From contig RECY01000023.1 of assembly GCA_007693785.1 (NCBI GenBank), positions 62,001 to 126,000 of the forward strand: a stretch of 64,000 bases of DNA, written 5' to 3'. The notes under the pieces are model-generated. The model was given only the letters and a program-made list of their open reading frames with translations, was not told where the DNA came from and did no database searches. Of the stretch, positions 14,175-59,084 are shown in pieces. How positions within the stretch are numbered: position 1 is the stretch's first letter; every line of letters starts with the position of its first letter. The translations under genes were made by a program, and so were the position numbers. This stretch comes from Phycisphaerales bacterium. GTDB lineage: Bacteria > Planctomycetota > Phycisphaerae > Phycisphaerales > UBA1924.

Positions 14175-14321
14175 TCAGCACTTCGCGGCGTTCACCGTGC
14201 GACCGGCGCGACGGCGGTTGTTAATGATCTTCCGCCCGCTCTTGGTCCGCATCCGTGCACGGAAGCCCAGCTTCCGGAAACGCTTGATCTTGCTCGTCCG
14301 CCTCGGGTAGTGAATCGCCAT
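14175..14321 (-). CDS. rpmH: 50S ribosomal protein bL34
   Basis: A 48-residue basic protein of the large subunit. The core FRKLGFRARMRTKSGRKIIN is the bL34 signature. The start MAIHYPRR differs from the common MKRTYQPS start. The frame stays open upstream, but the ATG at 14321 gives the normal length. In many bacteria rpmH is followed by rnpA, yidD and yidC. Here it stands alone and is followed by its own terminator, 12 kb from yidC-mnmE. Confidence 0.95.
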   Translation of the reverse strand: MAIHYPRRTSKIKRFRKLGFRARMRTKSGRKIINNRRRAGRTVNAAKC

Positions 14322-14415
14322 CGCGCCGCTCCGAATCCGTGTCAGGAACCCGTCAAAGACCCGCTCCGGACCAAGACGCGGCAAGCCGGGCCCGAGTCCG
14401 AAACGGCAGGACAGA

Positions 14416-14444
14416 TTGATAGCCCCCACACCGCCCTCAAGCAA
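14416..14444 (-). promoter_or_regulatory. Probable rpmH promoter
   Basis: On the minus strand TTGCTT (14439-14444) and TATCAA (14416-14421) are 17 bases apart. Transcription would start near 14409 and leave a leader of about 90 bases before the rpmH ATG. Confidence 0.45.
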
Positions 14445-14569
14445 GCCCCCCGCCGATCACCCGCGCCCGCACGACCCGCCCCCACCCCCGTGCACGATCG
14501 ATCAAAGTCCGATAAATAAAATGACTCCGGAGCAAATCCCTCATTGAGGGCGTTGTCACGCCAAAACCC

Positions 14570-14598
14570 TTGGCACGATCCGCGGGATCTCGTACGAT
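14570..14598 (+). promoter_or_regulatory. Promoter before the rnc leader
   Basis: TTGGCA (14570-14575), 17 bases, TACGAT (14593-14598). The predicted start is 14605, which is exactly the first base of the long fold described in the next entry. No better promoter lies between here and the rnc ATG. Confidence 0.6.
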
Positions 14599-14604
14599 GC
14601 ATTC

Positions 14605-14765
14605 GGACGCAGCCGAGCCAGCTTTTTCCGAGGCGGGCGTGCTGCCGTTCGTGGACCGTCAACGCACGGGTTGCTCGGGGCGGATCCGCCCCAGCCCGTC
14701 GGGGGAGCGGTCTCCGAACAGCCGCACCCTGCAGGAACGCCCGGGGTGGGCTGAGGCGTGCGTCC
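14605..14765 (+). ncRNA. Rod-like structured RNA: rnc leader or independent small RNA
   Basis: Nine short helices nest in order: 14605-14611 with 14759-14765; 14612-14614 with 14755-14757; 14616-14619 with 14749-14752; 14634-14640 with 14737-14743; 14642-14645 with 14731-14734; 14647-14651 with 14715-14719; 14654-14658 with 14708-14712; 14666-14670 with 14695-14699; and an apical GGGGCG/CGCCCC hairpin at 14677-14692. The outermost helix begins at the predicted transcription start. I see no SRP, RNase P or tmRNA signature. No T-run follows, so read-through into rnc (ATG 14869) is likely. RNase III of E. coli cuts a stem in its own leader, so autoregulation is the leading idea. A 6S-like small RNA is the alternative. 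Confidence 0.5.
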
Positions 14766-14774
14766 CGGCCGTCC

Positions 14775-14797
14775 CGATGGCGACTTCTTCGCCCTCG
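14775..14797 (+). other. Hairpin between the rod-like RNA and rnc
   Basis: Nine bases (14775-14783) pair with 14789-14797 with one mismatch around a 5-base loop. No T-run follows, so it is not an obvious terminator. It could be part of the rnc leader structure. Confidence 0.35.
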
Positions 14798-14868
14798 GAC
14801 GCGTCTGTCGCCGCGCCCGGCGACAACGCGGGGATTCTCCACGACCGAGGCAACGGGACCCGCCCTCG

Positions 14869-15603
14869 ATGGACGACGCCACGCGCCAAGCCGCCGAACA
14901 CACCCTCGGCTACCGGTTCAAAAACCCCGAACTCCTCGCCCGCAGCCTCCGGCACGCCTCGGTGACCGACGACCGGCTCGAATCCAACGAGCGCATGGAG
15001 TTCCTCGGCGACGCCGTCCTCGGCATGGTCGCCTGCGATCTCATCTACCAGGGCTACCCCGACCACCTCGAAGGCGACATGACCAAGCTCAAGAGCACCG
15101 TCGTCTCCCGGCGCACCTGCGCCCGCATCGCCCGCCAGCTCGGGCTCGAGGACATGCTCGAACTCGGCAAAGGCATGCGCAACAACTGCGACCGGCTCCC
15201 CTGCTCGCTCAGCGCCTGCGTCCTCGAAGCCGTCATCGCGGCCGTCTACCTCGACGGCGGGATCGACGCCGCCCGAGCCTTCCTCGAGCCGCTCCTCGAG
15301 CCCTGCATCGACGAGGCCGCCAACTGCGGGCACCAGCAGAACTTCAAAAGCGTCCTCCAGCAGCACGCCACCGGCGACGGCCTCGCCCAGCCCACCTACC
15401 GCGTGCTCGACGAGCAAGGCCCCGACCACGCCAAGGCGTTCAAAGTCGCCGTCGAGATCGACACCCGACGCTTCCCGCCCTCCTGGGGCAACAATAAGAA
15501 GGCCGCCGAGCAACAGGCCGCCCTCAACGCCCTCCGCGAGCTCGGCGTCGTCGAGCCGACCGGGCGCGACGGCGAGGTCCGCGTCATCACCGACGCGAAA
15601 TAG
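14869..15603 (+). CDS. rnc: Ribonuclease III
   Basis: Cuts double-stranded RNA in rRNA precursors and structured messages. The 244 residues have the family signature NERMEFLGDAVLG near residue 42 and the second acidic metal site in ACVLEAVIAAVYLDGG. A C-terminal double-stranded RNA-binding domain begins at NFKSVLQQHA and ends with NKKAAEQQAALNALREL. The ATG at 14869 gives the usual N terminus; the frame stays open to 14758, but that part looks non-coding. The long folded leader upstream is a natural substrate for this enzyme. Confidence 0.94.
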   Translation: MDDATRQAAEHTLGYRFKNPELLARSLRHASVTDDRLESNERMEFLGDAVLGMVACDLIYQGYPDHLEGDMTKLKSTVVSRRTCARIARQLGLEDMLELGKGMRNNCDRLPCSLSACVLEAVIAAVYLDGGIDAARAFLEPLLEPCIDEAANCGHQQNFKSVLQQHATGDGLAQPTYRVLDEQGPDHAKAFKVAVEIDTRRFPPSWGNNKKAAEQQAALNALRELGVVEPTGRDGEVRVITDAK

Positions 15604-32871: not shown

Positions 32872-33085
32872 GCCTGTCGGACCGAGCGAAATCCGGTGCC
32901 ATGGAAACGCGCAGCCCGTCCGCGGGCGAAGCTTTTCCATGACGGGCGTTGGACGGCACCGAACGCCTCAGCGTGCGAACAAAGAACGAGAACGAAGAGG
33001 TGAGATCCGGAAAAGCTGCGCCGCGGCGGCTTCGCGTTTCCGGGGCACCGAGGGCGAGGAAGCGAGGTAGGCGGCGTCGCGGCGT

Positions 33086-37777: not shown

Positions 37778-37876
37778 GTGGCGTGCTCCGTGTGTGCCGC
37801 TGCGTGCGGTTGACGGGCTCGCCGACGAAAGTCCGTGACGGGCGGGTGGTGGGCGAAGAGAACGCCGGCGCACTCG

Positions 37877-37950
37877 CTCGTTCGCGTTCCCTCCGCCGGT
37901 GCGAACCGGTTCAGGTTCAACGGGTGCGTCTCAGCCGCACGGCTCACGAG
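37877..37950 (-). promoter_or_regulatory. TPP riboswitch of thiC
   Basis: On the minus strand, GCGGCTGAGACGC is followed by CCCGTTGAACCTGAACCGG and later GGCGGAGGGAACG, the conserved blocks of the thiamine pyrophosphate aptamer in the right order. The closing helix pairs 37946-37950 with 37877-37881. About 100 bases separate it from the thiC ATG and can form GC-rich hairpins. No T-run is obvious, so control of translation start is likelier than termination. Confidence 0.93.
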
Positions 37951-38004
37951 TGGCCGGCGGCGCCCCGAGCGAACTGTGGAATGGTAGCGTCGCGAGCGAG
38001 GCGA

Positions 38005-56940: not shown

Positions 56941-59084
56941 AGCTGGACCTTTCGGTTGTAGACGTACCACTCGAGCGTGAGCAGGGCGATCGCCGCCAGG
57001 ACGAGCCAGGGCCAGAGGCGGCGCGTCGAGGACGCGAGCCCGCCCTCGGCGGCGCGGACCTGCTCGGTTGCGAGCTCCACGACGTCGGCCGCGCCGATGT
57101 CGCTCTCGATCGGATCGGCGAGGTTGGCGACGTAGACGCGCGTGTGGCGTCCGCCGGAGCGTCCGTCGGTCGGCGCGGACGGGCCGTCCCAGAACGCCTG
57201 ATAGACACCCGCGGTGCGCACGGGGCCGAACGCGATGCGCCCGTCGGGCCCGGGGGTAAGACGGGCGCGGTCGCCCCCGGGGAGGCGGAGCTCGACGTCG
57301 CGCGCCCCGGCGGGGAGGCGATCGGTCAGCACGCGACCGGGGCGGAGCACGTCCTCCCCCGCACCGGAAGCGGGTGCGCCCCCGCCCAGAAACTCCGCAG
57401 CCGAGGCGAGGAAGACGACAAAACTGACGTCGAAGGGCCAGTTGGTTCGCGCGACGTCGAACGGGACGACCACCGAGCGCACGCCGCCGACGGTGAGGTC
57501 CAGGATCGCGGGCCCGACGTCGGTTTCCGCCAGCACCTGCGCCGCCGAGTTCTCCGGGAGCGCGACGCGTCGGCTCTCGGCGATGACCAGCGGCTCCAGC
57601 GTCAGCTCCCGCAAGAGCGGGTGATCGCGCGACCAGTCGAGCACAACGGTCGCCGGGCCCTCGCCGCGATCCACCAGCCCCGCCGCCCCCGCGGGGACGG
57701 CGTCAAAAATCAGATAACGCCCGGGCGGGAACGCCTCGATCTCGGGCGCCGGGAGCCAGCCGTCGAGCACGATCACGTCGTATGAAGCCGCCCGACCGGA
57801 GGCGAGCTCCTCCTCGAACGCCTCGGGCGTGAACCGGTCGAGGCGTCGGAGGGGCAGGCCCTCCATCGCCGCGGCGAGGAAGAAGTTCCCGCGCGTCACC
57901 ACCGCCGCCGAGAGCTGGCGCGCCGGCGGGAGCGCGACCCACGCGCGATCATCGGTCGCGAACGGGTCGCCCGCATCGACCCGGGCCGCCACGAGCCCGG
58001 CCTGCTCGCGATCAAGGTTAAAAACCACGGCCGTCGTCGCGGGCGTGCGCCGCGTCCGCACGATCGGGCCCACGTCGCGCTCCCCCGCGAGCCCCGTGCG
58101 CCGCGCGCCCCCGGTGCCCGTGGTGGCCTCGCTCGCGCCCGGGATCGTCACCGAGCGGACGCCCGTGCGCACGCCGTCGATCAGCAGCTCAACATCGACC
58201 GTCTTCGCCTCGGTCGCCGTCGATTGCAGCCCGACGAAGATCCGCGCCCGCGTCGGCGTCTCGAAATCTCGCTCGGCACGGATGCCCGTGATCCCCACGT
58301 TCCACGTCTCGGGCTGGCCGATGCGGTGGAACACGATCTCGTCGCCCTGGCGCGGGAGCGCCCGCTGCGCGTCGGCCAGGCCGCCGTCGCTAATCAGGTG
58401 GACCGTCGCCGGCTCCCCGCCCGCGAGCCCCGTGTCGAAGATCTCGCCGGACCGTTCGTCGAAGTACGTCCGCGTCGGCGCGTGCGCCAGCGCGAGGCGC
58501 ATCGCTTCCTCCAGGCTCCCCGGCGCGTCGGTCGGCTCGATCGCCTCGATCGCGCGGCGCAGGGCCGCCTTGTCGCCCGTGAAGGCCGCCCGCACCTCGG
58601 CCGTCGTGTCGAACGCGATCACCATCGCCTCGTCCGGCGAGCGCTGCGCGAGCAGCCGCCCGCCGAAGCCGCCGAACGCGCCGCCGTCGCGCAGCCCGTC
58701 CACGATCTCCAGCGCCCTCGCCTTCGCGGCCTCGAACCGCGCGACCGGGTCGCGCCCCTCCCCCGCGTCCACGGTGCGCATGCTGGCCGAGCGGTCGATC
58801 AGGATGATGTGCCGACTCGAGGCCGCCCCCTCGCCCTCCAGCATTGGCTGCGCCAGCGCCAGCAGCACGCCGCCCATCACCAGCAGCTGCAACAACAGCA
58901 AAATGTTCCGGCGCAGCTTCTGGAACGGCGCGTTCGCCTGCAGATCCTGGATGCTCTTGCGCCACAGGAGCGTCGACGACACCTCCTGATCCCGCCGGCG
59001 CAGCTTCAGGAAGTACAGGATCACCAGCGACGGCACGGCCACCATCGCCGCCACCCCGCCCAGCCACGGCGTCAGCCAGCTCAC
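56937..59084 (-). CDS. BatA-like protein with a von Willebrand A domain
   Basis: 715 residues with two N-terminal membrane helices (WLGGVAAMVAVPSLVILYFL and NILLLLQLLVMGGVLLALAQPM) of the BatA type. A vWA domain follows with an intact MIDAS start IILIDRSASM near residue 95. The C-terminal domain has probable beta sandwiches, with a last helix (LWPWLVLAAIALLTLEWYVYN). vWA domains beside MoxR ATPases act in assembly or quality control of envelope complexes; the client is not known. The order after moxR and DUF58 is the usual one. Confidence 0.88.
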   Translation of the reverse strand: MSWLTPWLGGVAAMVAVPSLVILYFLKLRRRDQEVSSTLLWRKSIQDLQANAPFQKLRRNILLLLQLLVMGGVLLALAQPMLEGEGAASSRHIILIDRSASMRTVDAGEGRDPVARFEAAKARALEIVDGLRDGGAFGGFGGRLLAQRSPDEAMVIAFDTTAEVRAAFTGDKAALRRAIEAIEPTDAPGSLEEAMRLALAHAPTRTYFDERSGEIFDTGLAGGEPATVHLISDGGLADAQRALPRQGDEIVFHRIGQPETWNVGITGIRAERDFETPTRARIFVGLQSTATEAKTVDVELLIDGVRTGVRSVTIPGASEATTGTGGARRTGLAGERDVGPIVRTRRTPATTAVVFNLDREQAGLVAARVDAGDPFATDDRAWVALPPARQLSAAVVTRGNFFLAAAMEGLPLRRLDRFTPEAFEEELASGRAASYDVIVLDGWLPAPEIEAFPPGRYLIFDAVPAGAAGLVDRGEGPATVVLDWSRDHPLLRELTLEPLVIAESRRVALPENSAAQVLAETDVGPAILDLTVGGVRSVVVPFDVARTNWPFDVSFVVFLASAAEFLGGGAPASGAGEDVLRPGRVLTDRLPAGARDVELRLPGGDRARLTPGPDGRIAFGPVRTAGVYQAFWDGPSAPTDGRSGGRHTRVYVANLADPIESDIGAADVVELATEQVRAAEGGLASSTRRLWPWLVLAAIALLTLEWYVYNRKVQL

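Follow-up and report, generated by a model that had tools for sequence, protein, structure and literature searches.

Does the messenger of ribonuclease III (rnc) in a planctomycete begin with a structure through which the enzyme could limit its own expression? The question arises in a 64,000-nucleotide stretch of the genome of a Phycisphaerales bacterium (hereafter, the window), where a reading made from the sequence alone had described a rod-like folded leader starting at a promoter before rnc. The window's rnc is a true RNase III by its TIGR02191 score, and its start ATG (MDD/MDE-like) is conserved in alignments with relatives. The gene diverges from rpmH, and among 140 distinct gaps between these two genes only one exceeds the window's 547 nt. 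The window's genome (G000) is the sole member of its genus among 163 genomes of its family, the nearest rnc proteins are 66% identical or less, and an rnc tree of 38 rows did not settle the sister genus. The features discussed are collected in Table 1.

Table 1. Positions of the features discussed, numbered within the window
Feature	Positions	Strand	Evidence
rpmH (ribosomal protein L34), divergent from rnc	14175-14321	-	TIGR01030, 39.6 bits
Promoter-like site TTGGCA-17 nt-TACGAT, toward rnc	14570-14598	+	9/12 matches; shuffles, mean 0.0
Terminator-like hairpin	14602-14617	+	
Rod-like fold: one unbranched stem with its apical loop near 14684-14688	14605-14765	+	MFE fold of 14600-14770
Weak match to lower stem of family hairpin, GGACGCG//CGCGCCC, no second stem	14795-14820	+	R2 12.2 bits, R3 12.9 bits; not significant
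rnc (ribonuclease III), ATG at first position	14869-15603	+	TIGR02191, 202.3 bits (cut-off 166.25)
Strongly folded stretch with long inverted arms	about 32896-33066		z -4.16; stem score 71.8
TPP riboswitch	37870-37977	-	59.2 bits (gathering score 54.3)
Strongly folded stretch	57801-57971		z -4.68

A scan of positions 14200-15000 identified a single promoter-like site, which faces rnc and predicts a transcription start at about 14604-14606. The outermost pair of the rod (14605/14765) lies 7 nt past this site, and the rod ends 103 nt before the rnc ATG. The earlier placing of the outermost helix at the transcription start therefore agrees with the position of the promoter-like site, for a start that is predicted and not mapped. 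A terminator-like hairpin followed by CCAGCTTTTT occupies the extreme 5' end of the predicted rnc transcript; terminator-like sites in the scan were near chance (2 found versus 0.9 expected), though this one might conceivably serve as a leader attenuator.

The fold of 14600-14770 has a minimum free energy (MFE) of -95.1, compared with -83.9 (sd 4.4) in shuffles (z -2.54), and 2 of 200 shuffles fold as well. The rod-containing leader is 73% G+C. When the 64 kb were scanned in a 171-nt frame (752 stretches, 20 shuffles each), the rod had a z of -2.15, which made it 54th of 752, with 53 other stretches lower; its MFE was the 19th lowest (18 stretches lower), and 51 stretches had a higher stem score. 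Taken alone, the rod thus falls within about the top 2-7% of stretches in this G+C-rich window and is moderately unusual. What had been read as a rod leader at a promoter before rnc is borne out in shape and place, by a single rod behind the only promoter-like site, and is moderate in strength. DNA homologues of the rod amounted to pieces of 24-57 nt in 12 of 100 relatives searched. Elsewhere in the window, the stretch at about 32896-33066 is among the most strongly folded, with the highest stem score among those listed and, by eye, long inverted arms (GGAAACGCGCAGCC.. and ..GGCUUCGCGUUUCC), and the stretch at 57801-57971 has the lowest z of all 752.

We then compared rnc leaders as a class with leaders of other genes. 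A divergent rpmH was found at 156 of the 192 planctomycete loci read; the 36 loci without one within 1.2 kb were dropped, removal of identical gaps left 140, and 20 non-planctomycete loci (L104-L123) were not used. Controls were 127 leaders from the window and 19 further stretches, where genes were assigned by a crude longest-ORF rule; full length was reached by 46. The last 260 nt before rnc had a median z of -1.72 (140 leaders), versus -0.83 in the 127 controls. Among leaders with the full 260 nt, the medians were -1.99 for 116 rnc leaders and -0.69 for 46 controls (p = 3e-6). A z below -2 was found in 58/116 rnc leaders versus 7/46 controls, and a z below -4 in 20/116 versus 1/46. Best-stem scores were also higher before rnc (44.3 versus 33.5, p = 3e-8). 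Energy z and best-stem score were the measures used with the controls because the longest rod of the MFE fold, taken by raw length, did not differ (26.8 pairs in the 140 leaders, 25.8 in shuffles). Counted by 84 genus-level groups, the excess shrinks (median z -1.41 versus -0.83, p = 0.001), and leaders of groups without the conserved hairpin described below, the window's included, are weakly above controls (p = 0.07 for z, p = 0.001 for stem score). Two individual rnc leaders, L168 and L058, have very long MFE rods of 70 and 69 pairs, versus 24-26 in shuffles.

A covariation check on the rnc leaders of relatives, which the sequence-only reading had proposed, did uncover a conserved and co-varying hairpin, one other than the window's rod. 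This family hairpin has 24 layers, GGnCGCG-nnn-GCUCG on the 5' side and CGAGC-nnn-CGCGUCC on the 3' side, around a variable apex. In genera g59 and g17, a hairpin with 21 pairs in 23 layers is common to 20 leaders (alignment A1). A1 holds 33 cells with two-sided changes versus 10.5 in shuffles (0/500 shuffles), and 89% of its cells are paired (34-42% when the pairing is slid); further pair types are no more numerous than in shuffles. Alignment A4 (23 leaders, 12 genera), from which the window was excluded, comprises 23 of 24 hairpins, cut and chosen by motif and eye (L019 left out). Two-sided changes occur at 16 of its 24 pairs, in 59 cells versus 26.1 in shuffles (0/500), and its covariation score is 0.282 versus 0.119 in shuffles (0/500) and at most 0.123 in slid versions. 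The broadest alignment, A6 (41 leaders, 27 genera), was made from 41 matches on the rnc strand, with antisense, weak, and three other-strand matches (L026, L193, and L218) omitted. It has 98 two-sided cells versus 42.7 in shuffles (0/500) and a score of 0.293 versus 0.139; its pair counts lean toward structure, because most rows came from model R2 (below).

The pairs of A6 are not equally constant. Columns 7-8/118-119 and 15-17/110-112 are nearly always paired, and columns 5/121, 10-11/115-116, 19/108, and 23/104, where helix defects recur at fixed layers, lack a pair in roughly half or more of the sequences. In helix columns, G-U cells outnumber A-C cells by 47 to 13 (p = 1e-5) with five weak columns left out and by 71 to 45 (p = 0.02) with all columns, an excess that fits selection on the RNA of the rnc strand. 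In 12 of 38 carriers, versus 1.8 expected, a promoter-like site matching at 8/12 positions or better precedes the hairpin by 15-58 nt.

To follow the hairpin across genomes, we used covariance searches with a model of the g59 and g17 hairpins (R1), a model of A4 (R2), and a third model, R3; R2 and R3 were built without the window. At E < 1e-5, R1 matched 23 of the 163 family genomes, of which 20 belong to g59 and 3 to g17; the match is just upstream of rnc in 22 of them, and for the other, G174, the place of rnc is not listed. R2 matched 35 of 163 at E ≤ 0.001, every one directly upstream of rnc and on its strand. At E ≤ 0.1, 46 of the 48 genomes with a match had it in the leader of rnc and on the same strand as the gene, including 26 genomes and 13 genera outside the training set. 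Away from rnc, R2 gave four matches at E ≤ 0.1, and six more are listed between 0.1 and 1. Open reading frames tested beside the four places were a decarboxylase, an aminotransferase, and a UvrB-like helicase or had no Pfam match, and because these neighbors are unrelated or without a Pfam match, the four matches look like chance. The R2 genome search overlooks known copies, since its first look scores few candidates per genome; training genomes G032, G115, and G182 gave no match. In the order as a whole (301 genomes), 35 genomes had a match at E ≤ 0.1; 34 belong to the window's family, and one, G327 (E = 0.07), does not. The hairpin also precedes rnc at two loci, L039 and L177, with no rpmH found in the fetched flank. 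Overall, 27 or more genera carry it immediately before rnc.

Known RNA families did not account for these structures. An Rfam search of the whole window returned no family at the rod, its sole match being the TPP riboswitch in Table 1, and a search of 14300-15000 gave only a 12.8-bit match, below its 56-bit gathering score. At 14 relatives' loci, nothing scored above gathering (three sub-threshold matches, E values 0.24-0.74), and none of 17 loci that carry the family hairpin had a match reaching the gathering score. The E. coli rncO model (RF00552) had no match in G000 and did match E. coli among 14 control genomes. The 6S model (RF00013) likewise had none in G000, while 5 of 14 control genomes matched, so the suggestion that the rod might be 6S or another independent structured RNA found no footing in RF00013 or in any Rfam family at threshold over the rod.

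The window itself gave no significant match to the family hairpin. In its leader, R2 and R3 found the lower stem only, at the + strand scores in Table 1 and at 16.0 and 16.2 bits on the - strand; R1 reached 6.3 bits in the window, and whole-genome searches of G000 gave no R1 or R2 match. The score of the two-arm motif in the window was no better than in shuffles, either of all leaders (p = 0.27) or of the window's own (p = 0.53). We considered whether the rod might itself be the family hairpin, from the GGACGC//GCGUCC at its ends, and rejected this on R2, R3, and the two-arm score; the likeness of the rod ends to the family lower stem, seen by eye, is a lead. The short stem at 14795-14820 is a possible relic of the family hairpin. 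The proposal of a separate planctomycete rnc-leader stem, unrelated in sequence to that of E. coli, is well supported at the level of the family, with its widespread covarying hairpin; its extension to the window's rod, which has no match to that hairpin, stays tentative.

Other lineages also lack it. Genus g23 (7 leaders) has instead a different hairpin of 19 pairs, with 93% of cells paired; covariation there was no better than in shuffles (43/500 and 208/500), because this hairpin hardly varies. Among the remaining groups without the family hairpin, g57 has near-identical sequences, and g55, g28, g56, and g3 mostly show 42-80% pairing in relatives. In genus g51 (L186, L189, L191, L206, and L178), a second conserved hairpin, CUGGGC..GCCCGG, shows compensatory changes in the last 60 nt before rnc and directly precedes a GGAG and an in-frame upstream ATG; it could act on rnc translation.

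The reading that we favor, and to which we give an even chance, is that the window holds the 5' leader of the rnc mRNA, that the rnc leader in this family is selected as a long hairpin for feedback by RNase III, and that the window's rod is the counterpart of that hairpin. It builds on the promoter-like site, the fold, the structure above controls, the covariation, the linkage to rnc, and the G-U excess on the rnc strand. The leader would be transcribed from the promoter-like site; in the family, it appears to be under selection for a long hairpin, for the most part the 24-layer stem, whose helix defects are fixed. This double-stranded leader is most likely a target that RNase III binds or cuts, which would hasten the decay of the enzyme's own message in a negative feedback like that of rncO. 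Near the 5' end of the rnc mRNA, a stem of some two helical turns whose internal loops are fixed fits a site where RNase III would bind or cut, with feedback through mRNA decay. In the window, the 160-nt rod probably does the same job as a lineage-specific counterpart. The data are most consistent with a long stem before rnc being kept in the family while its sequence can be replaced, and for the window we infer the same. The more specific proposal is put forward tentatively, at somewhat under an even chance: an RNase III operator peculiar to the family, in the form of a 24-layer hairpin with fixed internal loops, unrelated in sequence to rncO, without an Rfam match in the tested loci and replaced in some lineages (the window and g23) by other long stems, such that the double-stranded target persists before rnc as its sequence changes.

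Either the window's rod is such a counterpart, specific to its lineage, or a G+C-rich leader folds this way by chance, in a lineage where the real family hairpin was lost or reduced, perhaps to the stem at 14795-14820. We regard a chance fold as unlikely, though as a reading to be taken seriously: 53 of the 751 other stretches have a lower z, the window has no R2 or R3 match, and leaders of non-carriers are near controls in z. Against this, the rod is unbranched and spans the leader from the predicted start, and its energy is reached by so few shuffles and by so few stretches of the window. A leader stem could also act on rnc by a route that does not involve RNase III: by shielding the 5' end, by controlling translation or transcription, or by binding another protein. 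Neither covariation nor linkage to rnc names the ligand; however, a stem of about two turns before the gene for a nuclease of double-stranded RNA fits RNase III best, and feedback on rnc is described in three other groups (below), which leaves action without RNase III improbable.

An independent small RNA such as 6S, with its own promoter and an end before rnc, is very improbable. It would suit the promoter-like site and the rod shape, but beyond the 6S and Rfam results given above, the hairpin stays with rnc in relatives, and the scan showed no terminator-like site on the + strand between rod and rnc, its only + strand site overlapping the 5' end of the rod. Least credible is a palindrome acting as DNA, an operator between divergent promoters. 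The divergence of rpmH and rnc suits such an operator, yet the two-sided changes preserve pairing and not sequence, G-U cells outnumber A-C cells on the strand of rnc, and L039 and L177 carry the hairpin with no rpmH found in the fetched flank.

If feedback through the leader hairpin is correct, it would be a further case of RNase III acting on rnc, with its own ordered structure, in a family of planctomycetes. The many sequenced genera would provide a natural series for RNase III recognition, in which fixed helix defects can be set against free pairs, in uncultured planctomycetes for which there is little experimental RNA biology. In open-licence PMC literature, judged partly by title and start of abstract, we found no paper on RNase III in Phycisphaer- taxa or on the rnc leader of planctomycetes.

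Feedback of RNase III on rnc has been described in three distant groups, E. coli, Streptomyces, and Staphylococcus aureus, with the target differently placed in each, according to the portions of the published accounts on which we draw here and below. As with E. coli rncO, the predicted stems of the window and its relatives belong to the 5' leader immediately before rnc, and RNase III feedback is proposed for them here; the planctomycete hairpin is not a member of RF00552, and its sequence is unrelated. 6S RNA shares the rod shape, whereas the RNA predicted here runs on into rnc. In Streptomyces coelicolor, rnc (absB) similarly has one cut site upstream of the gene in a stem-loop, but its transcript is polycistronic and a second site lies inside rnc; RNase III of this species also cuts at the [4/4] internal loop of the rpsO-pnp hairpin. 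The S. aureus enzyme likewise has its own mRNA as a target, where it cuts a long and irregular helix, although there the cut site is inside the coding region, and in the planctomycetes the stem stands before it.
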